Of a stretch of 64,000 nucleotides of DNA, positions 4,863-27,869 are shown in pieces; within the stretch, counting starts at the first letter, position 1, and each line of letters begins with the position of its first letter. The DNA comes from Micavibrio sp. (GTDB lineage: Bacteria; Pseudomonadota; Alphaproteobacteria; Micavibrionales; UBA2020), in the NCBI GenBank assembly GCA_028283745.1, contig JAPWJZ010000004.1:62001-126000 (forward strand), given 5' to 3'. The notes beneath the pieces were generated by a model. That model was given only the letters and a program-made list of their open reading frames with translations. It was not told the origin of the DNA and did not search any database. The position numbers and the translations under genes were made by a program.

Positions 4863-6689
4863 ATGACCGATAAAAAAGCATTCCTGCGCAGCGACTACTG
4901 GTTCGGCCAGGCCGCCGCGGTTGATGTGCGCGCGCACCATACCGGCAAAATGGTCAATTCAAAGCTGACGCTGGAAGAGCTGTGCGGCACCACCGGCCAC
5001 CCCGCCGCCGACCGTACGGAAAGCGGCCGCCGCCCCTGCATTGCGGTTGCCAAGTTCGGCGGTGACCTGAACCCCTGCCAGGCCATGCATGACCATCACC
5101 TCGGCGACCGCGTGGCGGAAGGCGTGCGGTCGGCGGGCGGCATTCCGCTGCGCTTTGATGTATCCCCGCCCCTTGGCGAACCCCTGACGCGCCCGACATC
5201 CATGTACATGCGCAACCTGACTGCGCTGTCGCTGATGGAAACCATTATCGCGAACCCCATTGACGGTATTGTGCTGCTGACCGGCTGCGACAAAACCGTC
5301 CCCGCCGGCCTGATGGCTGCATTGCTGACGGATATTCCGACCATCGTCGCCTCCGCAGGGCCGATGCTGAACGGGTATTACCACGGCGAGCAATCCGCCT
5401 CCGGCATTCACCTGTGGAAAAACCGCGAGCTGCTGGCCGCGGGCGAAATTACCGAAGAAGAGCTAATGATCCGTTCCTGCGCCGCGCAGCCGAGCGCGGG
5501 GCATTGCATGAGCATGGGCACCGCCTCCACCCTCAACAGCCTTGCGGAAGCGCTGGGGCTGACGCTGATGGGCGCATCGTCCATCCCCGCGCCGATGGCC
5601 GAGCGCGCGCATTACAGTTATCGCGCCGGCGCCGCCGCCGTTGAAATGGTGCTGACAGACCGCCGCCCCAGCACCTTCATCAACCGCCAGTCTTTCCTGA
5701 ACGCGGTTGCGGCCAATGCCGCCATTGGCGGTTCCACCAACGCCATCGTCCACCTGCTGGCAATTGCGCGCATGGCTGGCATTGAATTCACGCTGGATGA
5801 CTGGCAGAAATACGGCTCCAACGTGCCGCTGCTCGTCAACGTCAAGCCGTCAGGCGCTTACCTGATGGAAGAATATTTCCGCGCCGGCGGCATGCCGGCC
5901 GTACTGCGCGAGCTGAGCGCCGCAGGTTACGTGGATGGCAATAGCGGCTGGTGCACCGGCAAGACGATGACGGAAGAACTTGGCGCGCGCGACCCGTATA
6001 CCGACACCAACGTCATCCGCACCGTCAAGGTACCGCTGCTGAACGACGGCGGCATTGTCATCCTGCATGGCAACCTGTGCCCGGATGGCGCGGTGATCAA
6101 AGTTTCCGCCGTGTCCAACAAGGCGCTGCTGCAGCACCGCGGGCAGGCCGTTGTTTTTGACAGCATCGAGGAATATCACAAGCGCATCGACGACCCGGCC
6201 GAAGGCATCACCACCGATAAAGTCCTTGTGCTGCGCAACTGCGGCCCTCTGGGCTACCCCGGCATGCCGGAAGTCGGCAACGTGCGCCCCCCGGGCTACC
6301 TGCTGGCGAAGGGCGTGAAGGCGATGGTGACCGTTTCGGACGCCCGCATGAGCGGCACGGCCTATGGCTGCCACGTCTTGCACGTATCGCCGGAAGCCGC
6401 AGCCGGCGGCCCGCTGGCGCTGGTTAAAACCGGCGACTTTGTGACGCTGGATGTCGCCGGCGGCAAGCTGGATATGGACGTGGATGCCGCCGAGCTGGAA
6501 GCGCGCCGCAAAGCGCTGAATATCAAGCCCACGCCCATTCACAGCCCGTGGGGCGTTATTTGGGGCCACCCGGACCTGGGCGTGCATCAGGCATCGGTTG
6601 GCGCATACATGAAAATGTTTGACCGCCCCGAACTGCAGCGCGACGTGATTGCCAAACGCCTGCGCGAACGCCTGCGCCCGCAACATTGA
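4863..6689 (+). CDS. IlvD/Edd-type sugar-acid dehydratase (probably D-galactonate/L-arabinonate dehydratase)
   Basis: A 608-aa [2Fe-2S] dehydratase that removes water from a sugar acid to give a 2-keto-3-deoxy sugar acid. Candidate cluster cysteines are C72 (or C59), C142 in TGCDKT and C215 in SAGHCMSMGTA, spaced as in L-arabinonate dehydratases; the catalytic-serine segment DARMSGTAYG is present near residue 497. Sequence character (MSMGTASTLNSLAEALGL, YSYRAGAAAVEMV) fits the arabinonate/fuconate/galactonate branch rather than branched-chain IlvD or Edd. KDPGal aldolase lies 17 nt downstream and the KDGal kinase is convergent, so D-galactonate is the favoured substrate. ATG 4863 is preceded by AAAAAGGG. 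Confidence 0.88.
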   Translation: MTDKKAFLRSDYWFGQAAAVDVRAHHTGKMVNSKLTLEELCGTTGHPAADRTESGRRPCIAVAKFGGDLNPCQAMHDHHLGDRVAEGVRSAGGIPLRFDVSPPLGEPLTRPTSMYMRNLTALSLMETIIANPIDGIVLLTGCDKTVPAGLMAALLTDIPTIVASAGPMLNGYYHGEQSASGIHLWKNRELLAAGEITEEELMIRSCAAQPSAGHCMSMGTASTLNSLAEALGLTLMGASSIPAPMAERAHYSYRAGAAAVEMVLTDRRPSTFINRQSFLNAVAANAAIGGSTNAIVHLLAIARMAGIEFTLDDWQKYGSNVPLLVNVKPSGAYLMEEYFRAGGMPAVLRELSAAGYVDGNSGWCTGKTMTEELGARDPYTDTNVIRTVKVPLLNDGGIVILHGNLCPDGAVIKVSAVSNKALLQHRGQAVVFDSIEEYHKRIDDPAEGITTDKVLVLRNCGPLGYPGMPEVGNVRPPGYLLAKGVKAMVTVSDARMSGTAYGCHVLHVSPEAAAGGPLALVKTGDFVTLDVAGGKLDMDVDAAELEARRKALNIKPTPIHSPWGVIWGHPDLGVHQASVGAYMKMFDRPELQRDVIAKRLRERLRPQH

Positions 6690-6706
6690 CTTTGAAGGAA
6701 AGCCAG

Positions 6707-7336
6707 ATGCCGGAAAAATATTTCGCCGAAAGCCGCCTTGTCGCCATTCTGCGCGGTCTCACGCCCGATGAAGCGATTGCGCAGGGCGACGCGATTGTGA
6801 ATGCAGGCTGGCGCTGCCTTGAAGTGCCGCTGAATTCACCCGAACCTTTTGAAAGCATTCGCCTGCTGGCGGCGCATTTTGGCGACAAGGTGCTGGTGGG
6901 CGCGGGCACAGTGCTAACCCCGGCAGATGTGCAGAAAGTCTTTGATGTTGGCGGCAGGCTGATTGTTGCGCCGAATACAGATGATGATGTGGTTAAAAAA
7001 GCCTTGTCACTGAACATGGTGATGATGCCGGGGGTTTATACCGCCACCGAAGCCTTCCATGCCTATAAAATCGGCGTGCGTTACCTGAAGCTGTTTCCGG
7101 CGGATTCGCTGGGGCCTTCTTATGTGCGCGCGCTGAAAAGCGTGCTGCCGAAAGATGCAAAAATTATCCCGACCGGCGGCGTTTCGGTTGATACCATTGC
7201 GGCCTTTCATGCGGCGGGCTGTCATGCCTTTGGCATTGGGTCGCAGTTGTACAAAAAAGGCGTTACGCCCGAAGAGGTCGGCAAGCGCGCGCGCGCGCTG
7301 TCGGACGCGCTGAAGCTTGCGGAAAGCGCTACTTAA
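6707..7336 (+). CDS. dgoA: 2-dehydro-3-deoxy-6-phosphogalactonate aldolase
   Basis: Cleaves KDPGal to pyruvate and glyceraldehyde 3-phosphate, the last step of the De Ley-Doudoroff route. A 209-aa class I aldolase of the KDPG/KDPGal family: catalytic E39 in RCLEVPLNSP, GAGTVLT at 65-71, Schiff-base K128 in RYLKLFPADS, and phosphate-binding PTGGVS. The LFPAD variant and short N-terminus favour DgoA over Eda. An upstream TTG at 6686 is possible, but ATG 6707 has AAGGAAAG in front and is preferred. It is co-transcribed with the dehydratase. Its 3' end overlaps the convergent kinase gene by 8 bp. Confidence 0.92.
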   Translation: MPEKYFAESRLVAILRGLTPDEAIAQGDAIVNAGWRCLEVPLNSPEPFESIRLLAAHFGDKVLVGAGTVLTPADVQKVFDVGGRLIVAPNTDDDVVKKALSLNMVMMPGVYTATEAFHAYKIGVRYLKLFPADSLGPSYVRALKSVLPKDAKIIPTGGVSVDTIAAFHAAGCHAFGIGSQLYKKGVTPEEVGKRARALSDALKLAESAT

Positions 7337-8267
7337 GCGCGGCAAGGCCGGTGAAGACCGCGGTTTCACTATCCACGGTCGCCAGCACGGGCCATTGCAA
7401 GCTGGCAAAGCCGCGCATGTAAAAATCGCGCTTCGCGCCGGCATCCGCCAGCAGCACGGCGGGCGCGCGGTGATAAAATTTTTCCATCTGCCGCAGTTCG
7501 TGACCGATAAGAATGCCGGAGAAATACGCAGCTAAATCCTGCGGGGGGCTTGGGTCGCGCAGTTTTTGCGACCGCACCTGCCAAAGATCCGTCAGCAAAT
7601 CAAACCCGCATGCGGCCAAAGCCAGGCCAGCATCGAACGATGCGGCATCCGGCACAGGAGGCGCGGGGTTGGCCTTTAATATAGCGCCAATGCCGCCGTT
7701 TTCGCTAAGAAGGTTAAAAACCTCACCCGTCAGCGCGGTTTCAAAACCGGTGATTTTTCCGGACTTGATCTCCACCCATTTGCAATGCGTGCCGGGAATG
7801 CACAACAGCGCATCGCCAAGGCCTAAATGTTTTGCCGCGCCTAGACTTTTGACTTCTTCACTGCGGATGACATCGTGGCGGCCATCCTTCATGAGGGTGG
7901 TGCAGCCGCTGGCGATATAGATGTTGCGGTTTGCTGCGGCATGCAGCTTTTCCGGCGCGATTTTGTGCAGGTTGCGGCGAATCTCGGCAAAGCCTGCGGG
8001 CGTAACGGAATACGCCGTTTCAACCCAGCCTTCGCGCCCGCCGACCGCACCGCAGATATAGACCGGTGCGGCGGGGTGCGCCGTTAGCCAGTCGCCAAGC
8101 TGCTCGACAAAGAAAGCCGCATAGGCTTCGCTGCGCTTTTCGGGCGCGGCGGCGCTGAAGTTTTTAAGTGTGCCGCCACCTGCCGCCCCGCGGCGGTCGA
8201 TGGCTTTGCCGCCGTCCACCAGAAAGGCGCGGAAGTTGGAGCTGCCCCAGTCAACGTAAATTTCCAT
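7329..8267 (-). CDS. dgoK: 2-dehydro-3-deoxygalactonokinase
   Basis: Phosphorylates 2-keto-3-deoxygalactonate to KDPGal, using ATP, in the cytosol. About 312 aa. The N-terminal YVDWGSSNFRAF is the phosphate-1-like motif of the DgoK branch of the ASKHA kinases, and CIPGTHCKWVEI is a family hallmark in mid-protein. A longer in-frame start at 8342 overlaps the lactonase end; ATG 8267 follows GGAAGG and is chosen. First substrate-phosphorylating enzyme of the minus-strand galactose operon SDR-lactonase-kinase; the lactonase stop lies 22 bp upstream. Confidence 0.92.
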   Translation of the reverse strand: MEIYVDWGSSNFRAFLVDGGKAIDRRGAAGGGTLKNFSAAAPEKRSEAYAAFFVEQLGDWLTAHPAAPVYICGAVGGREGWVETAYSVTPAGFAEIRRNLHKIAPEKLHAAANRNIYIASGCTTLMKDGRHDVIRSEEVKSLGAAKHLGLGDALLCIPGTHCKWVEIKSGKITGFETALTGEVFNLLSENGGIGAILKANPAPPVPDAASFDAGLALAACGFDLLTDLWQVRSQKLRDPSPPQDLAAYFSGILIGHELRQMEKFYHRAPAVLLADAGAKRDFYMRGFASLQWPVLATVDSETAVFTGLAALK

Positions 8268-8289
8268 GGCGTTGCCTTCCATTACACAT

Positions 8290-9162
8290 CTACCCGCGAT
8301 ACGGCGTTTCAGGCAGGCCCGCAACGTCCATGTGAATGGCAAAAAGCCGGCCGGAAAGCGGCGCTTCCTTTAGCCCCGCATCATCCATATTTTCGGCCGC
8401 GGTGGTGATATACAGGGTTTTCAAATCATCCCCGCCGAAGGCGCAGGAGGATACCTGCGGCACGGGCAGATCAATGCGTCCATCGGGCTTGCCATCAGGC
8501 GTATAGATTTCAATGCCCCAGCCGGGCCATTGCGCGGTTAACACGCGGCCCTGCGCATCGACGCATAGACCGTCGGGCCGGCCTTTGTCCTTGAATTCAA
8601 CAAAGGTGCGGCGGCTATGCGCGGTACCGGCATCAAGGTCGTAATCGTATTGCCAGATCACGCGTTGCACGGTGTCTGTGTAATACATGATTTTATTATC
8701 AGGGCTCCAGCCGAGCCCGTTGGAGATATGAATGTTTGTGGCCTGCTCATGCAGCCCGCGTTCATCAAGCCGGTAAAGTGCGCCGGTTGCAAGGCTATGG
8801 TCATTATTGTTCATGGTCCCGCCCCACAGGCGGCCACGGCGGTCGCACTTGCCGTCATTGAAGCGGTTATCCGGGTGGGCATATTGCGGGCGCAGCAGGC
8901 ACTGGTTGCTGCCGTTGGAAAAATCGATCCTGTAAATGCCGTCGCGCAGGCCCGCAACAATCTGGCCCTGTTCATCCAGTACGGCAAAGCCGGGCATGGC
9001 GGGCGGGGCGCAAAAATCATGCGTGCCGCTGGCAGGGTCATAACGGTGAATTTTACGGCCGATGATGTCGCACCAATACAGTTTTTTGCCGCGTGCATCC
9101 CAGTGCGGGCCTTCGCCGAGCGTGGAGACGGGCAAGGCGCTGCTGACGAGTTCTGCCTTCAT
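8290..9162 (-). CDS. SMP-30/gluconolactonase family lactonase
   Basis: Predicted sugar lactonase that opens galactono-1,4(5)-lactone to galactonate. The 290-aa beta-propeller keeps the metal ligands of the SMP-30 family: E17 (LGEGPHW), N102 (RFNDGKCD), N148 (HISNGLGW) and D197 (GRPDGLCVD). No signal peptide, so it is cytosolic. The start overlaps the upstream SDR stop (ATGA at 9159-9162), so translation is coupled. The specific lactone is inferred from the neighbouring KDGal kinase and KDPGal aldolase; arabinonolactone or gluconolactone cannot be ruled out from sequence alone. Confidence 0.9.
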   Translation of the reverse strand: MKAELVSSALPVSTLGEGPHWDARGKKLYWCDIIGRKIHRYDPASGTHDFCAPPAMPGFAVLDEQGQIVAGLRDGIYRIDFSNGSNQCLLRPQYAHPDNRFNDGKCDRRGRLWGGTMNNNDHSLATGALYRLDERGLHEQATNIHISNGLGWSPDNKIMYYTDTVQRVIWQYDYDLDAGTAHSRRTFVEFKDKGRPDGLCVDAQGRVLTAQWPGWGIEIYTPDGKPDGRIDLPVPQVSSCAFGGDDLKTLYITTAAENMDDAGLKEAPLSGRLFAIHMDVAGLPETPYRG

Positions 9163-10028
9163 GCCGCACCTTTTTTGCTGCCGTCGGTGACGGCGCTGGT
9201 TTTAATCTGCCCTTCGCCGCCATCCAGCCGCAGCGTGGCGCCGCTAAGAAGCCCCGCGTAATGCGAAAGGGAGAAGACGAGCGACGGCACGATATCTTCC
9301 GGCCCCATCCCGCGCGGCACCAGTTGTTCGCGGGCGGCGTCGATAAAATTCTGCTTTGTGAAGCGGGCTTTTTGCGCATCCGTCTGCACCCAGCCGGGGC
9401 AGAAGCCGAAAACGCGGATGATGTTATCGGCGCTATTGCCTTCACCCGCCCTCACGGCAAGACGGCGGATGCCGCTGTCCAGCGCGGCTTTGGCGCAGCC
9501 GTAGCCGGTCATGTCCGGTTCAAAAATTTCGGCACCGTGGCGGGAGGTAAACAGGCAGATGGCGCCGCCCCCGCCGCGCCGCATGGGCTCCAGCACATCG
9601 CGCGCGGCAAAGAACGGCGCGAAAAAATTTATGCGCATCAGCATTTCCGCCTGCGCCTGCCCCAATGCTTCAAAGCCAACCCGGCTGTCATAGCCGAGCG
9701 TGCTGATAAAGGCGGCGGGCGCGCCCACGGCATCCACCGCAGCGGCCATTGCGCGGGTGCGCTCCACTTCATCGCCCATGTCGGCGGTGATAGCGGCGGG
9801 GTCGAAGGTATTGAAGGAATCTTTTGCGCCGCGGTCTTTTAAATCTGCCGCAAGCGACAGCGCGAGGTCGATGCTTTTGTCGACGATGGCGACTTTCGCG
9901 CCAAGCCAGTGAAACGCATCGGCCAGTGCTGCGCCCATGCCGCCCGCGCCGCCCGCCACAATAACGCCGCGCCCCTGGAATTCGCGGAAATACTCGCGGG
10001 AGAGGCTGCTGTGCCAGTCGTACGTCAT
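9159..10028 (-). CDS. SDR family oxidoreductase (candidate galactose 1-dehydrogenase)
   Basis: A 289-aa short-chain dehydrogenase. The Rossmann glycine motif GGAGGMG is at 26-32, and the catalytic triad is S162, Y176 and K180 (TSRHG and YGCAK), followed by a FCPGWVQTD segment typical of SDR proteins. It is first in the minus-strand operon with lactonase and DgoK, so the simplest reading is NAD(P)-dependent oxidation of galactose to its lactone, completing the pathway. SDR-type galactose dehydrogenases are known, but substrate cannot be read from the sequence. A start at 10028 is supported by AGGGA ten bases upstream. Confidence 0.82.
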   Translation of the reverse strand: MTYDWHSSLSREYFREFQGRGVIVAGGAGGMGAALADAFHWLGAKVAIVDKSIDLALSLAADLKDRGAKDSFNTFDPAAITADMGDEVERTRAMAAAVDAVGAPAAFISTLGYDSRVGFEALGQAQAEMLMRINFFAPFFAARDVLEPMRRGGGGAICLFTSRHGAEIFEPDMTGYGCAKAALDSGIRRLAVRAGEGNSADNIIRVFGFCPGWVQTDAQKARFTKQNFIDAAREQLVPRGMGPEDIVPSLVFSLSHYAGLLSGATLRLDGGEGQIKTSAVTDGSKKGAA

Positions 10029-10519: not shown

Positions 10520-11251
10520 CTAGATTTGAATGAGACCCATGTTGAGCGCACGCAGCACGCCAAGGGTGATGTTGTTTGCATCCAGCTTGCGCAGCGCGGT
10601 TTTAATATAGCCATGCACGGTATGCTCGGATAGCGCCAGAATTTCACCGATTTCCGATTTCGTCTTGCCGCGCGCGCACCATTTCAAAACCTCGCGCTCG
10701 CGGTCGCTCAGGTAAACAGCATTATCCGTGCTGCCAAGACGCTTGGCTTCCAACGTCTGGAACGCCGTATAGAACTGCTGCGACAGCAGTTGCGCGCGCG
10801 ACAGCAGATTGGGGTCGCGCAAATCAACGCCGCCTGCGCTACTGGCGGCGCCCACGCCTGCCAAGGCCCCGCGCGGTCCCCAAAGCGGTACGGCAATGCC
10901 GTCATACAAACCTGATTCAATCCCCTCGTTCATCATGACGATCTGGCGGTCGGTGACACTTGTTTCGGTCAGCAGGCTGTTCCACAGGAAGATGCCGTTG
11001 GCGGCATACAGCTGCTGCCGCACGGGGTCGATGTTGACGTAATCTTTTTTGGTGTAGTGCTCCATCCATTCCTCGGAATAATTGACGAGGATGCCATGGC
11101 CCGCGGGCCGCTGGATGTGCGTGTGGTCGGTCAGCAGGCTGAAGACAAGGCGGTCGAAGCCCAGCTGCTCCATCGCGGCGCGATAGAGTGCAAAAAGCGC
11201 GTCAACATTATCTGCCTTATTGGAGGAATCGATGAAATCTTCGATCGTCAC
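10520..11251 (-). CDS. LuxR-family regulator with autoinducer-binding domain
   Basis: A 243-aa regulator with an N-terminal autoinducer-binding domain (about 15-165) and a C-terminal GerE helix-turn-helix (about 178-240; YLSDREREVLKWCARGKTKSE then SEHTVHGYIKTALRKL). Residues usually contacting acyl-homoserine lactones appear conserved: W62, Y66 and D75 in WMEHYTKKDYVNIDP. No luxI-type synthase lies in the window, so it is a solo or eavesdropping regulator here. The 5' region (11252-11350) is very AT-rich with an ATTCA-AA-TGAAT inverted repeat at 11288-11299, a possible autoregulatory site. Confidence 0.9.
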   Translation of the reverse strand: MTIEDFIDSSNKADNVDALFALYRAAMEQLGFDRLVFSLLTDHTHIQRPAGHGILVNYSEEWMEHYTKKDYVNIDPVRQQLYAANGIFLWNSLLTETSVTDRQIVMMNEGIESGLYDGIAVPLWGPRGALAGVGAASSAGGVDLRDPNLLSRAQLLSQQFYTAFQTLEAKRLGSTDNAVYLSDREREVLKWCARGKTKSEIGEILALSEHTVHGYIKTALRKLDANNITLGVLRALNMGLIQI

Positions 11252-16845: not shown

Positions 16846-16895
16846 TTGCTCAAATACTCAGTATGAGTATATTTATATACTCTATTAGAGCATAA
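16846..16895 (+). promoter_or_regulatory. Promoter with two phased TATRCTC-N5-GAGYATA operators
   Basis: Operator 1 is ATACTC-AGTAT-GAGTAT at 16854-16870 (perfect arms). Operator 2 is TATACTC-TATTA-GAGCATA at 16876-16894 (one mismatch). Their centres are 23 bp apart, about two helical turns. TTGCTC (16846-16851) and TATATT (16868-16873), 16 bp apart, could be -35/-10, placing operator 1 in the spacer. The downstream gene starts at 16938. Compare 25465-25533. Confidence 0.6.
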
Positions 16896-16937: not shown

Positions 16938-18308
16938 ATGGACCTGAACCGGAATATAGCACTGGCGGAAAAATACCCGCTGGATTTCACGCTGCAGTAC
17001 CCGCCCCGGCGCGAATACTTCCAGTCGCGTTTTCGCGGCACACCGGATTTATCTGCGGCGCAAAAAGTTTCCGACATGCTATTGTACCTGCATGTGCCTT
17101 TCTGCGCCGCCAAATGCTATTTCTGCAACTTCGCGGTCGATGTGCGCACGGCCGAAGGCCTCCACCAGCGCTATACCGATCTTCTGTGCCTGCAGCTGGA
17201 ACGGTTGGATAATTTTTTGCCCCGGCACGTGCGCGTGCCCGGCATCGACATTGGCGGCGGCACGCCAACCCTGCTGGAAGAAGCACAGCTGCGCCAGATT
17301 ACAGCCGCCTTGAAACCATGGCGCGCCCGCACCACCTGCGAACACCCGCTTTCCATTGAAACTACGCCCCGCATTGCCGCCACCAACCCCGAACGCATGC
17401 AGGCGCTGCTGGACGGCGGCGTGACCCGCATTTCCATGGGTGTGCAAAGCGCCAACGCCGCAACCCTGCAGGCCGTGAACCGCGGGCTGCAGGAAAACAT
17501 GACGCGCAAGGCCGTGCAGAATTTGCGCCAGGCGGGTTTCCGCCGCATCAACGTCGATATTATTTTTGGCCTGCCGAACCAGACAGCAGCGGACTGGCAG
17601 GCGGAAATTGATAATATCCTCGACCTTGGGGTTGATTCAGTCACCACCTATGACTGCCTTTACCGCGGCAAGGGCCGCGCGTTGACCAAACGCACAGCCG
17701 ACAAGCCGAACCCGGTAACCTACGGCGCGCTTTACGACCTTTCCTACCACATGCTGGCAAATGCAGGCTTTCATGCGGCCTATGGCTCCGTCAACTTTTC
17801 CCGCCATGCGGGGGAAACGGGTACATCGCCTTACTTTGAAGGCCGCCTGTTCGACCATATCCCCTACCTGGGCGCGGGCAATTATGCCTCCAGCCAGGTC
17901 GGCAACAGCTGGTGGTTTGCACCCTACAGCACCAATGCGTGGATGGAGCGCATTGAAAAAGGCGATACATTGCCGGGCGGTGATTGTTACGACCTGCCGC
18001 CGATGGAGCTGATGGCAAAGCAGGTGCTGCAATCGCTCAACTTCGGCACCATCAACACGCAGCGTTTTGAAACGCGCTTTCATGCGGCGTTCGATGATGT
18101 TTACGCCGATGCGATTAAAACCGCCCTTGCCAAAGGCTGGATGCACCGGATTGACACCGGCTACGGCGTCACGCCCGGCTACTTTAGCCATATGCCGCAA
18201 ATCCGCGCCCTGTTTTACACGACCGATGCGATCACCTGGGTCGCAGACGGCGAACATACCGCCCTGCCCCTAAAGGCCACGGCGGGCAAAAGAAAGGAAA
18301 TAGCATGA
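16938..18308 (+). CDS. HemN-like radical SAM protein
   Basis: A 456-aa radical SAM enzyme. The [4Fe-4S]/SAM motif is C56-x3-C60-x2-C63 (CAAKCYFC), with GGGTPT at about 106-111 and the HemN-like FGLPNQT segment. The C-terminal region matches the HemN_C type only loosely. It lacks a clear match to the N-terminal residues of true coproporphyrinogen dehydrogenase, and HemN-like paralogues include haem chaperones (HemW), methyltransferases and cyclopropane-forming enzymes. It is translationally coupled (ATGA) to an RfbH/E1-like gene, suggesting a biosynthetic pair rather than haem synthesis. Weak ribosome site; expression is probably controlled by the two upstream operators. Confidence 0.85.
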   Translation: MDLNRNIALAEKYPLDFTLQYPPRREYFQSRFRGTPDLSAAQKVSDMLLYLHVPFCAAKCYFCNFAVDVRTAEGLHQRYTDLLCLQLERLDNFLPRHVRVPGIDIGGGTPTLLEEAQLRQITAALKPWRARTTCEHPLSIETTPRIAATNPERMQALLDGGVTRISMGVQSANAATLQAVNRGLQENMTRKAVQNLRQAGFRRINVDIIFGLPNQTAADWQAEIDNILDLGVDSVTTYDCLYRGKGRALTKRTADKPNPVTYGALYDLSYHMLANAGFHAAYGSVNFSRHAGETGTSPYFEGRLFDHIPYLGAGNYASSQVGNSWWFAPYSTNAWMERIEKGDTLPGGDCYDLPPMELMAKQVLQSLNFGTINTQRFETRFHAAFDDVYADAIKTALAKGWMHRIDTGYGVTPGYFSHMPQIRALFYTTDAITWVADGEHTALPLKATAGKRKEIA

Positions 18309-19477
18309 GCAACTTCCGTTATCCCTGCACTGGCAGGGTCAGCACCAAAGGTTTCGGCGCGTTCCTTGAGGAACAGACAGGCGCATCCCGCAATAACCTT
18401 GGCCAGTTCACGGCGGCGCTTGGCAAAACCTTTTCGGCGGAACGGCTGACGCTGGTCAATTCCGGCTCCTCCGCCAACCTTGTTGCGGCGCTGGCGCTGG
18501 CGGAGCAATTGAAAGCCGCGGGTAAGCCACTGGAAGCGGTTGCGGCGGCCTATACCTTCCCCACCACACTTTCCGCCCTTGGTTTTGCGGGCTTTAACGT
18601 GCGGCTGGTGGATACGGAGGAAGGCGGCTTTAACATGTGCCCTGCCGCTCTTGAACGCGCCTTGCTGCAGAAACCGGCAACGCTGGTTTGCGTAACGCAC
18701 TTCCTTGGTTTTGCGGCGCAAATGGACCGCATTATGCCGCTTGCCCGCGCCAGCGGCGCATTCGTGCTGCAGGATGCCTGCGAAACGATGGATTTGACAG
18801 GTGCTGGCGGCATACCGCTGCACAAAATGGGCGACATGACCACATGGTCGTTCTACCACCCGCACCATATGTCGAGCTTCGGCGGCGGCGCGGTGATTGC
18901 CGGCAATGATGCGCTGTACAGGCTGGCGGATTCCATTTCACACTGGGGCCGCGCCTGCACCTGCCATATCGACCCCGCCACCTGCACCGCGCCCAAAGGC
19001 TTTTCGCACAACTTCAGTTATGTGCGCCAGGGCGTGAATGTGGAGATGAGCGAGCTGAACGCCTGCTTCGGCCGCTTCCAGCTGCAAAACTGGGATGCAC
19101 TTGAGGCCGCGCGCAAGCAGCGCTATGACCTGCTGCTGGCAGAACTGTCAGATATTCCCGGCGTTAAAACATATCCGCGCGATACGGCGAATGGTAGTCC
19201 TTTCGTCTTCCCGATCACCTTAAGCGGTGAAACCAGTGCGCAAGCCGCAGCAGCCCTTGCCACACAGGGCATTGAATGCCGCAGCTTGATGGGCGGCGCC
19301 ATGACGCAGCAACCCGCCTTCCAAAACATGGCCAGTGACGGCACGCCGCATGCGATAAAGCAGGCGACGCAATCCTTCTTCGTCGGTATTCACCAGACCT
19401 TGCCGCTGGAAGATGTGGCGCATGTGGCCGCAGCCTTGAAGGCGCGCTATACGGCGAAAAAGATCCGCGCCGCTTAA
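18305..19477 (+). CDS. RfbH/E1-like PMP- and [2Fe-2S]-dependent dehydratase homologue (DegT fold)
   Basis: A 390-aa DegT/DnrJ/EryC1/StrS-fold protein. The usual PLP-binding lysine is replaced by histidine (H188 in SFYHPHHMSSFGGG), as in CDP-6-deoxy-hexulose 3-dehydratase E1 (RfbH/AscC). Cysteines C159, C218, C220 and C227 have spacing X58, X1, X6, close to the E1 [2Fe-2S] pattern C-X57-C-X1-C-X7-C. This suggests a radical C-3 deoxygenation of a sugar or similar substrate using PMP. An E1 normally needs a ferredoxin reductase E3; none is nearby, but the coupled radical SAM protein is. No sugar-nucleotide genes surround it, so the substrate is open. Confidence 0.85.
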   Translation: MSNFRYPCTGRVSTKGFGAFLEEQTGASRNNLGQFTAALGKTFSAERLTLVNSGSSANLVAALALAEQLKAAGKPLEAVAAAYTFPTTLSALGFAGFNVRLVDTEEGGFNMCPAALERALLQKPATLVCVTHFLGFAAQMDRIMPLARASGAFVLQDACETMDLTGAGGIPLHKMGDMTTWSFYHPHHMSSFGGGAVIAGNDALYRLADSISHWGRACTCHIDPATCTAPKGFSHNFSYVRQGVNVEMSELNACFGRFQLQNWDALEAARKQRYDLLLAELSDIPGVKTYPRDTANGSPFVFPITLSGETSAQAAAALATQGIECRSLMGGAMTQQPAFQNMASDGTPHAIKQATQSFFVGIHQTLPLEDVAHVAAALKARYTAKKIRAA

Positions 19478-25217: not shown

Positions 25218-25614
25218 ACGGCGCCAGCGTTGAACACAAAAGGTCGAGCATATTTAGCATATTCGCACCCAAAAAGCAGCCCAAAGATACCCTTTTGCCC
25301 CTCTGGCAAACGGGTGTTTGAGCGGGCCGGATCTGTGTAATTAAGCCGCTTTGCGATTCTCGCCCGCCCTTCAGCAGGCTGCATGCACGCCAAAACAGTG
25401 AAGGTACCAAAACCTCTTAAAAATGCGCCATTTACAACCTTTCCTGATGAGGGAAAATACCGGGTTGACTTATGCTCGTGTCGAGTATAGTTTATGCTCT
25501 ATCGGAGAATAAAAAAGCTTGATTTGAGCATAAGCGGTTATTCTGCAGCACACACAACCAGCAAGGCGGCCCGCCAGACAAGGGCCCTTAAAAAAAAGAA
25601 GGAACGCAAGGACA
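25218..25614. other. 397-bp divergent intergenic region between tamA and VWA gene
   Basis: No ORF with support is seen. The left ~200 bp serve tamA expression and contain no recognised motif. The right part holds the promoter and triple-operator region at 25465-25533, followed by an 80-bp leader with a palindrome AAGGGCCCTT and a purine-rich ribosome site before the VWA start. Confidence 0.6.
25465..25533 (+). promoter_or_regulatory. Promoter with three phased TATRCTC-N5-GAGYATA-type operators
   Basis: Site A TATGCTC-GTGTC-GAGTATA (25471-25489), site B TTATGCTC-TATCG-GAGAATAA (25492-25512), and site C with a clear right arm GAGCATAA (25526-25533) and a poor left arm. Centres are 22 and 21 bp apart. 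TTGACT (25465-25470) and TATAGT (25486-25491), 15 bp apart, could be -35/-10, so site A occupies the spacer, as at 16854-16870. Confidence 0.6.
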
Positions 25615-26565
25615 ATGGGACACGGCAGATGGGATAACAACGATTGGGACAGCTACACGACCAAAAACACCAAGGGCAAATCCGCGCGCGAGATTTTCAA
25701 TTCATCCGCCATCCACCCGGATATGGACCCGCGCAAAATCCAGCTGCGTGAATCGCGCAATTCGGCGGATAACCCCCATTCCACCCCCATCATCCTCGCG
25801 CTTGACGTGACCGGCTCCATGGGCGTGATCGCAGAACGCATGGCGCGTGAAGGCCTTGGCACCCTTGTCGAGCAGATCCTTGATCGCAAGCCCGTTTCCG
25901 ACCCGCACATCATGGTGATGGGCGTGGGCGATGCCTATTGCGACCGCGCACCGCTGCAGGCCTCGCAGTTCGAGGCCGATATCCGCATCGCCGAGCAGCT
26001 GAAAAACATTTACCTTGAAGGCGGCGGCGGCGGTAACCATTTTGAAAGCTATAACCTGCCCTGGTACTTCGCTGCGAAAAAGACTGAAATTGACAGCGTT
26101 TCCCAAGGCCGCAAAGGCGTCATCTTCACCTTCGGCGATGAAGAATGCCCGCCGGAGCTGACGAAAGAACACATTAAGAAACTGTTCGGTGACGATGTGC
26201 CGGGTAACATCAGCTCCAAGGACCTGCTGAAAATGGTTTCGGCGAAGTACGATGTTTTCCACGTGGTCGTGGAACAGGGCAACCATGCCCGCAGCCATAA
26301 AAAAGAAGTCTATGACAGCTGGAACAAGGTATTGCCGCCGGAGCGCATTGTATCGCTGAAAGACTATAACAAGCTGTCGGAAGTGCTGGTTTCCGTGCTG
26401 GAAGTCCATAACGGCAAGGATCCTGCCGCCGTGGTCGCCAGCTGGCAGGGCGAAACCGCGAAAACCGTGCAGGACGCCATCAAGAACATTAAACCCGCAA
26501 AGGCCGCGAACAGCAACGCCGTACCGTTGCCGCCCTCGCACCTGAAGCTGAAACTTAAGCCTTAA
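25615..26565 (+). CDS. VWA-like (MIDAS) protein of unknown function
   Basis: A 316-aa soluble protein with a von Willebrand A-like core: the metal-ion-dependent adhesion motif appears as D64-V-T-G-S68 (ALDVTGSMG), a DxTxS variant, followed by predicted alternating strands and helices and a glycine run GGGGGN near residue 142. A later FTFGDEECPPEL stretch is highly acidic. No signal peptide, so it is probably cytosolic. VWA proteins often act with AAA+ ATPases or as metal-dependent scaffolds, but no such partner is adjacent. The C-terminus carries the AANSNA tail shared with two other proteins here. The triple-operator promoter suggests tight regulation. Confidence 0.75.
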   Translation: MGHGRWDNNDWDSYTTKNTKGKSAREIFNSSAIHPDMDPRKIQLRESRNSADNPHSTPIILALDVTGSMGVIAERMAREGLGTLVEQILDRKPVSDPHIMVMGVGDAYCDRAPLQASQFEADIRIAEQLKNIYLEGGGGGNHFESYNLPWYFAAKKTEIDSVSQGRKGVIFTFGDEECPPELTKEHIKKLFGDDVPGNISSKDLLKMVSAKYDVFHVVVEQGNHARSHKKEVYDSWNKVLPPERIVSLKDYNKLSEVLVSVLEVHNGKDPAAVVASWQGETAKTVQDAIKNIKPAKAANSNAVPLPPSHLKLKLKP

Positions 26566-26669: not shown

Positions 26670-27869
26670 ATGAAAACTGCATATTCCGTCATCGGCGCCG
26701 GTTACGGCGATGAAGGCAAGGGCCTGACGACAGACCATTACGCCGCCCGCTTTGCCGGCAACGCGCTCGTGGTGCGCTACAACGGCGGCGCGCAGGCGGG
26801 GCATACCGTGGCAACGCCGCAGGGCCAGCGTCATGTCTTCAGCCATTTCGGCAGCGGCAGCTTTGCAGGTGCACCGACCTTCCTCAGCCAGTTCTTCGTT
26901 TGCAACCCGCTGCTGTTCATGAAAGAACTGGCGCTGCTGCATGACAAAGCCGTTACCCCCGCTGTGCGGGTGGCTGCCGGCGCGCCCGTCACCACGCCCT
27001 ATGACATGATGATCAACCAGATTGCCGAAGAAGCGCGCGGCGCGACGCGGCACGGCAGCTGCGGCATGGGCTTTGGTGAAACCATTGAGCGCTGCGAGCC
27101 GGGCAACCCCGCCCTTTTCTATGCCGACCTTGCGGATGCCGCCGCGTTGAAACAAAAACTCGGTGTTATTCGCAAAGAATGGGTGCCGAAGCGCCTCGCC
27201 GCCCTTGGCATTCAAAATATTCCGTCGCTGTGGCAGGAACGCATTGGCGCGGAAGGCGTGCTGCAAAAATTTATGGATGATACGGCGGCTTTTTTGCAGG
27301 TCGCGCAACCGGCCGCGCCCGATTACCTTGCCACCACGCCCGCCATGATTATTTTTGAAGGCGCGCAGGGGCTGTTGCTGGACCAGGTGCGCGGTACCTT
27401 CCCGCACGTTACGCGGTCGCATACCGGCATCAAAAACATTCTGGCACTGGCGGCGGCTGCGGAAATTGACAGCATTGACGCCACCTATATCACCCGCGCC
27501 TACCTGACGCGCCACGGCGCAGGCCCGCTGGCGGGTGAATTGCAGCAAGCGCCGTACGCGGGCATTGAAGATAAAACCAATATCACCAATACCTATCAGG
27601 GTAGCCTGCGTTTTGCGCACCTTGATATTGCGCACCTGCAAAAAACCATTGAAGGCGACTTAAGCGACCGGAACTTAGGGATCAAACTGCGCGTTGGACT
27701 TATGGTCAGCTGCCTTGACCAGCTGGATGACGTTGTGCAGTACGCGGATGATTATACGCTGGCCGAAACAACGCCGGAAGGTTTGGTGGCCGCGCTGCAA
27801 AGCCGCCTTGCCCCCGACTTTATGCTGACAAGCCACGGCCCCACACGGGCGACAATTCATTCGCTTTAA
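26670..27869 (+). CDS. Divergent adenylosuccinate synthetase homologue (PurA/PurZ superfamily)
   Basis: A 399-aa homologue of the GTP-dependent ligase that joins IMP and aspartate. The catalytic region is kept: GDEGKG with D14 and K17, and H45 in QAGHTV. It differs from canonical PurA (about 430 aa): GDEGKG is followed by L instead of K, GTFPHVTRSHTG replaces the usual GTYP..TSSNTTAGG, and the GRRRRTGW nucleotide loop is replaced by NTYQGSLRFAHLD. These features recall divergent or phage-type members, including the PurZ branch, but assignment needs a tree. Stand-alone between a terminator and an esterase gene; not next to other purine synthesis genes. Confidence 0.8.
   Translation: MKTAYSVIGAGYGDEGKGLTTDHYAARFAGNALVVRYNGGAQAGHTVATPQGQRHVFSHFGSGSFAGAPTFLSQFFVCNPLLFMKELALLHDKAVTPAVRVAAGAPVTTPYDMMINQIAEEARGATRHGSCGMGFGETIERCEPGNPALFYADLADAAALKQKLGVIRKEWVPKRLAALGIQNIPSLWQERIGAEGVLQKFMDDTAAFLQVAQPAAPDYLATTPAMIIFEGAQGLLLDQVRGTFPHVTRSHTGIKNILALAAAAEIDSIDATYITRAYLTRHGAGPLAGELQQAPYAGIEDKTNITNTYQGSLRFAHLDIAHLQKTIEGDLSDRNLGIKLRVGLMVSCLDQLDDVVQYADDYTLAETTPEGLVAALQSRLAPDFMLTSHGPTRATIHSL

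Follow-up and report, generated by a model that had tools for sequence, protein, structure and literature searches.

Enzymes of the E1 type have been described in nucleotide deoxy-sugar pathways, and enzymes with the HemN fold in haem, menaquinone and natural-product chemistry. AprD4 is a radical SAM diol-dehydratase with a reductase partner, and the STM4012 family of radical SAM proteins is, to our knowledge, uncharacterised. E1 itself (RfbH type, CDP-6-deoxy-L-threo-D-glycero-4-hexulose-3-dehydrase, 3bcx) does need E3, whereas the spinosyn 3-dehydratase SpnQ works with general ferredoxin/flavodoxin reductase systems and without E3 (PMC8987622).

In the window, a stretch of 64,000 nucleotides from a Micavibrio sp. 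genome, we found genes of both folds side by side on the forward strand. The first (16938..18308, 456 aa) encodes a HemN-fold radical SAM protein (Pfam Radical_SAM, 2.4e-19) with the motif CxxxCxxC at C56/C60/C63, and the second (18305..19477, 390 aa) a DegT-family protein of E1/RfbH fold (Pfam DegT_DnrJ_EryC1, 1.5e-40) that resembles the PMP- and [2Fe-2S]-dependent dehydratases. As read from the sequence, the two share the 4 bp ATGA (18305..18308, forward strand), an overlap that suggests translational coupling, and both can be regarded as real genes because orthologues of about 45-48% identity occur in other genomes. On the 5' side lies a divergent gene for a FecR-domain protein and on the 3' side a convergent ankyrin-repeat gene, followed by genes that we take to be TamB-like and TamA-like; given a divergent and a convergent neighbour, the pair forms a stand-alone two-gene unit. 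No E3 or sugar-nucleotide gene was found near it in a Pfam scan of 14 neighbouring ORFs within the 64 kb, as the sequence-only reading had it. A TamB match was present in five other genomes, and the neighbourhoods of two of these (G002 and G021) had only TamA/TamB or weak kinase matches in common with the window. Elsewhere in the window (4863-10028) we observed a group of sugar-acid genes (encoding an IlvD/Edd dehydratase, a 2-keto-3-deoxy-galactonokinase, an SMP-30 lactonase and a short-chain dehydrogenase), followed by a LuxR gene with an autoinducer domain (10520-11251).

The reading that we prefer, and to which we give an even chance, is that the pair is a rare, self-contained and horizontally spread two-enzyme radical module, in which reductive C-O cleavage and a HemN-type reaction would act on one shared substrate. 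In the window's order, a search of the 141 further genomes gave no orthologue of the E1-like protein; matches at E<=1e-15 occurred in 5 of 142 genomes, namely the window's own and four at paralogue level with at most 67 bits. Matches in the phylum sample numbered 44 of 398 at 1e-22, the best besides the window scoring 146 bits, and for the radical SAM protein 249 of 385 genomes in the class sample matched at 1e-20, the best other at 117 bits versus 1068 bits for the protein itself. We also ran a steered scan over the collection of genomes with alignment A4 and exact patterns including A[AC]FGR[EF]QL[KQ] (more distant pairs may thus have escaped); it matched 53 stretches, three of which encode relatives. 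Locus L243, from Bacteroidetes bacterium MAG-134, is 45% identical, and its radical SAM orthologue (48% identical, E 1.3e-138) lies downstream of the E1-like gene on the same strand. Among relatives of MAG-134 only MAG-134 itself and G885 gave a match (2 of 149; in the order sample 2 of 396), and the G885 contig (L251) opens with the truncated C-terminal end of the E1-like gene, followed by the radical SAM gene. In both of these metagenome-assembled genomes (MAGs) a contig end cuts off what precedes the pair, which counts against the module.

The occurrence of the same pair in another phylum, with the order reversed (E1-like gene first in both Bacteroidetes MAGs versus radical SAM gene first in the window), indicates that the coupling is conserved across phyla, and since an unusual pair recurs in distantly related bacteria the two proteins probably act together. 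The sequence-only reading of two tightly coupled radical iron-sulfur enzymes is in this respect borne out by the two ORFs, their overlap and the pairing in the other phylum. Between the two MAGs, moreover, the radical SAM genes differ with a dN of 0.117 and a dS of 1.84 (NG86), showing that selection preserves the protein. The arrangement and distribution also offer points against a module: the genes in the MAGs do not overlap and are about 300 bp apart, and with three genomes, two of them related, conservation amounts to about two independent contexts. The small number of genomes, a transfer that the two MAGs may have in common, and the differing genes downstream of the pair in all three would also fit an accidental adjacency, in which two unrelated genes happened to be carried on one transferred segment. 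This we hold to be very improbable, as an ATGA overlap in one lineage and a reversed order in the other imply that the arrangement was rebuilt while the partners were kept together, and both proteins have the same restricted distribution.

Of 298 loci examined, 242 had an E1-like gene, 36 a HemN-like gene and 11 both, and all 11 are copies of the same three places. At eight loci chosen for near-full-length or high-scoring E1-like matches we found no radical SAM gene. Viral contigs yielded no orthologue, neither by scans with the single proteins nor with the pair alignments; genome contigs scanned with the radical SAM protein gave 20 matching stretches and no relative; and with the joined pair as query (846 aa) no record reached 80% coverage among 687 matching plasmid and 94 matching phage records. 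We found no paper on a pair of HemN-like radical SAM and E1/DegT proteins among the open-access papers listed by our searches, within which the conserved pairing appears undescribed, although both folds are well known. In both MAGs the sequence that separates the two genes contains a conserved element of some 130 bp with strong predicted folding (z -3.7; L243 1185-1330, L251 219-360). Its identification as Flavo-1 was sub-threshold (21.1 bits versus a gathering score of 42), and the element was left out of the module.

The E1-like protein retains the cofactor residues of its family. H188 (codon 18866..18868, forward strand) aligns with the catalytic His of E1/RfbH, where aminotransferases have a Lys, and C159, C218, C220 and C227 (codons starting at 18779, 18956, 18962 and 18983, in the stretch 18779..18985, forward strand) correspond to what we take to be the four [2Fe-2S] ligands of E1, with a spacing of CxCx6C versus CxCx7C in E1. 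All five residues are identical in the L243 orthologue, and the PMP histidine and cluster cysteines first read from the window are confirmed. Among 45 aligned members of the family, the pair not counted, D157 and H187 are conserved throughout (45/45), C159 in 44/45 and H188 in 43/45. The presence of all four cysteines sets the protein apart from ColD, which lacks them, and makes it similar to SpnQ, an E1-like enzyme with a [2Fe-2S] cluster that was likened to it by description and that belongs to a macrolide deoxy-sugar pathway.

The AlphaFold2 model of the E1-like protein (mean pLDDT 92.9) has E1 dehydrase 3bcx as its top match by Foldseek and VIA-align (Z 44.5, 376 residues aligned, 2.7 A). 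Sugar aminotransferases come next, from Z 44.2 down and some within 1 Z of 3bcx, and because these scores are nearly equal the fold alone does not discriminate between the two activities. The main catalyst of the pair might instead be the radical SAM enzyme, and the E1-like protein, its cofactors retained, might transaminate or isomerise a compound that is not a nucleotide (an aminocyclitol, a tetrapyrrole or an amino-acid derived compound). This would agree with the use of such substrates by DegT proteins whose fold is similar (1b9i and 8gyj are two of the model matches), with the transamination by SpnQ when its reductase is missing (PMC8987622) and with STM4012 as the nearest radical SAM profile. 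Nevertheless, the catalytic Lys of aminotransferases is a His here, and the retention of all four cluster cysteines suits reduction better than transamination, so that this other chemistry seems quite unlikely.

We also observed clear differences from E1. Identity with 3bcx is 24%, and E1 is matched by the model only from its residue 30 onwards. Of the curated NCBIfam models RfbH fits the window protein best; this protein scores 179 bits with it and the L243 protein, the start of which is missing, 204 bits, both below the cut-off of 423. Every other curated cut-off is missed by the window protein as well. In a tree of 55 proteins picked by hand from about 147 non-redundant ones (47 for alignment A7), the protein falls in a long-stemmed clade of its own. 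There are 27 positions at which the two pair members agree and at least 75% of the 37 E1-like proteins outside the pair share a different residue. Examples are G193, which replaces a Glu directly behind the catalytic His, E247 (Lys in the others), P299 (Trp) and A332 (Asn). At positions 160, 185 and 237 the pair residue differs from all 37; among the changes are residues that are fixed in the E1-like proteins. Short E1-like proteins on viral contigs form another clade (L073 2836-3969, L074 2974-4110, L214, L216 and L217), and by eye L073 and L074 have a preceding gene that looks thiamin-diphosphate-enzyme or acetolactate-synthase-like and a later gene that looks terminase-like. E1-like and other DegT-family genes are frequent on IMG/VR contigs, with at least 568 relatives among 600 candidates.

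The radical SAM protein is likewise at a distance from the described families. Its model, of moderate quality (mean pLDDT 79.7, which counts against the module), is nearest to HemN 1olt (Z 33.6, 401 residues aligned, 3.5 A), the next entry having a Z of 16.0. It is like HemN in its overall fold, the CxxxCxxC motif and residues that map to SAM contacts, and unlike it in having no fourth Cys and none of the HemN motifs. By alignment, GPRYTSYPTA, RNFQGYTT and CX3CX2CXC are absent from the window, L243 and L251 proteins, and the HemW haem-binding motif HNxxYW is absent from all three as well (the HemN and HemW motifs are taken from PMC10320005). Of the motifs of the class C menaquinone methyltransferases (MenK/MqnK) that were compared, LYxHxPFCxxxCxxCxF is present at residues 49-65, and YFxxxRxE, GxxFxxxYxGGGT and QxTxYPLx were not seen in the window protein by eye. 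When aligned with NocN, for which SAM contacts are described in PMC12871812, residues Y50, R164, R182 and D207 map to Y34, R153, R171 and D196 and are all kept; the SAM-II contacts Y96 and S225 of NocN, from the same source, are changed to D104 and T236, which argues against the module.

The window protein and both MAG orthologues remain below the NCBIfam cut-offs of STM4012, HutW, HemN, HemW and HemZ. STM4012 is the best curated profile (179-204 bits, cut-off 380), and the three pair members score 138-144 bits with HemN (cut-off 325) and 121-150 bits with HemW (cut-off 205). A similar N-terminal YPPK/YPPR stretch is found in the STM4012 family; in contrast to the pair, the STM4012 genes examined lie mostly, though not always, beside STM4011 and STM4013, and none lies beside an E1-like gene. 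AprD4 is comparable in the idea of a radical SAM enzyme and a second enzyme for deoxygenation, but is of another radical SAM subfamily and gives only a weak profile match (20 bits). Both radical SAM trees group the three pair members together (100/100), on a stem 2.2-2.3 changes per column long and apart from the clades of HemN and STM4012; the second tree was made without ten rows of the first (L267, L265, L023, L025-L030 and L032) and with two STM4012 rows added. Topology tests gave an AU p of 0.46 for grouping the pair with STM4012 and of 0.12 for HemW, and a grouping with HemN was already present at 53/22. The protein is thus not placed firmly in HemW or HemN, and its pairing is conserved, so that the refutation proposed with the sequence-only reading fails. 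A Prevotella plasmid protein (L267, 3905-5188), encoded beside a second radical SAM gene, is placed with the pair by one of the trees (92/93), on long branches.

We observed no CDP-glucose 4,6-dehydratase (TIGR02622) over the cut-off in any of the three pair genomes, another difference from the setting of E1; at a completeness of 96.8% (contamination 6.8%) for the window's genome, a gene scored as missing may sit in a gap. Matches with PF16363 (GDP_Man_Dehyd) at E<=1e-15 numbered one in the window's genome, a partial GalE-like frame of 302 aa that lacks its N-terminal portion, and five and six in the MAGs. Five of these 12 matches were scanned with NCBIfam, and none of the five passed a 4,6-dehydratase cut-off, the one for dTDP-glucose dehydratase included. 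The pair might still belong to an ordinary but divergent deoxy-sugar step, in which the E1-like protein is the 3-dehydratase of a nucleotide 4-keto sugar (dTDP, GDP or UDP) that is supplied from elsewhere, and the radical SAM partner modifies the sugar, for instance by C-methylation at an sp2 carbon like the class C methylases. The E1 fold and cofactor residues, RfbH as the best curated model (though below its cut-off), the several GDP_Man_Dehyd-superfamily proteins of the MAGs and the two viral E1-like genes that by eye adjoin genes resembling acetolactate synthase (which may add a branch once C3 is deoxygenated) are in line with this, while the partial frame as sole match in the window's genome, the absence of a 4,6-dehydratase among the five matches scanned and the changed E1 residues make it doubtful.

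Since no CDP-glucose 4,6-dehydratase was detected and conserved E1 residues are changed, the substrate of the pair is probably not CDP-4-keto-6-deoxyglucose, and the deoxy-sugar suggested from the sequence is unlikely to arise by the canonical CDP route. The modified cofactor, its suggested alternative, is neither favoured nor contradicted by these data. The missing E3, noted as a puzzle at that time, is no argument against E1-like activity, because SpnQ runs on general ferredoxin/flavodoxin systems (PMC8987622). A search for a co-occurring reductase, also proposed then, gave one FAD_binding_6 match in the window's genome, in a 247-aa ORF, and two and one in the MAGs. The earlier interpretation of the pair as a whole is therefore partly supported.

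For the module that we prefer, we infer reactions on a common compound. In the E1-like enzyme, PMP would condense with a keto group of the substrate to a Schiff base; the enzyme would then expel the neighbouring hydroxyl with H188 as the base and reduce the intermediate in one-electron steps via its [2Fe-2S] cluster, with electrons from a general ferredoxin or flavodoxin. Either before or after that reaction, the HemN-fold enzyme would convert the same compound, probably using two SAM molecules. In another reading, which we hold to be unlikely, deoxygenation is achieved by two radical iron-sulfur enzymes alone: the HemN-fold enzyme would install the keto group (or unsaturation) that normally comes from a short-chain 4,6-dehydratase, after which the E1-like enzyme would remove the neighbouring hydroxyl, the substrate being something other than a canonical nucleotide sugar. 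The stand-alone conserved pair, the altered E1 residues and the lack of a detected CDP-glucose 4,6-dehydratase point to chemistry beyond the contexts in which the two folds usually occur, and two proteins suffice to test the module.

The pair had further been described as a regulated operon, to which we can add a candidate operator and nothing further. An operator-like array of four alternating half-sites (ATACTC-GAGTAT-ATACTC-GAGCAT; 16854..16893, strand-neutral) forms inverted repeats, the half-sites starting 11-12 bp apart, and lies 45-84 bp before the start of the radical SAM gene; no sigma-70-like promoter was found. GAGTATN6ATACTC occurs once in the 64 kb (expected 0.01) and ATACTCN5GAGTAT three times, two of them in the array (expected 0.02). 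A one-mismatch copy of ATACTC-N5-GAGTAT is found at 25472-25488, upstream of an ORF at 25615-26565 that, judged from this repeat, is possibly in the same regulon as the pair, and this ORF is adjoined by a gene encoding a divergent adenylosuccinate-synthetase-like protein (26670-27869, Pfam 150 bits).
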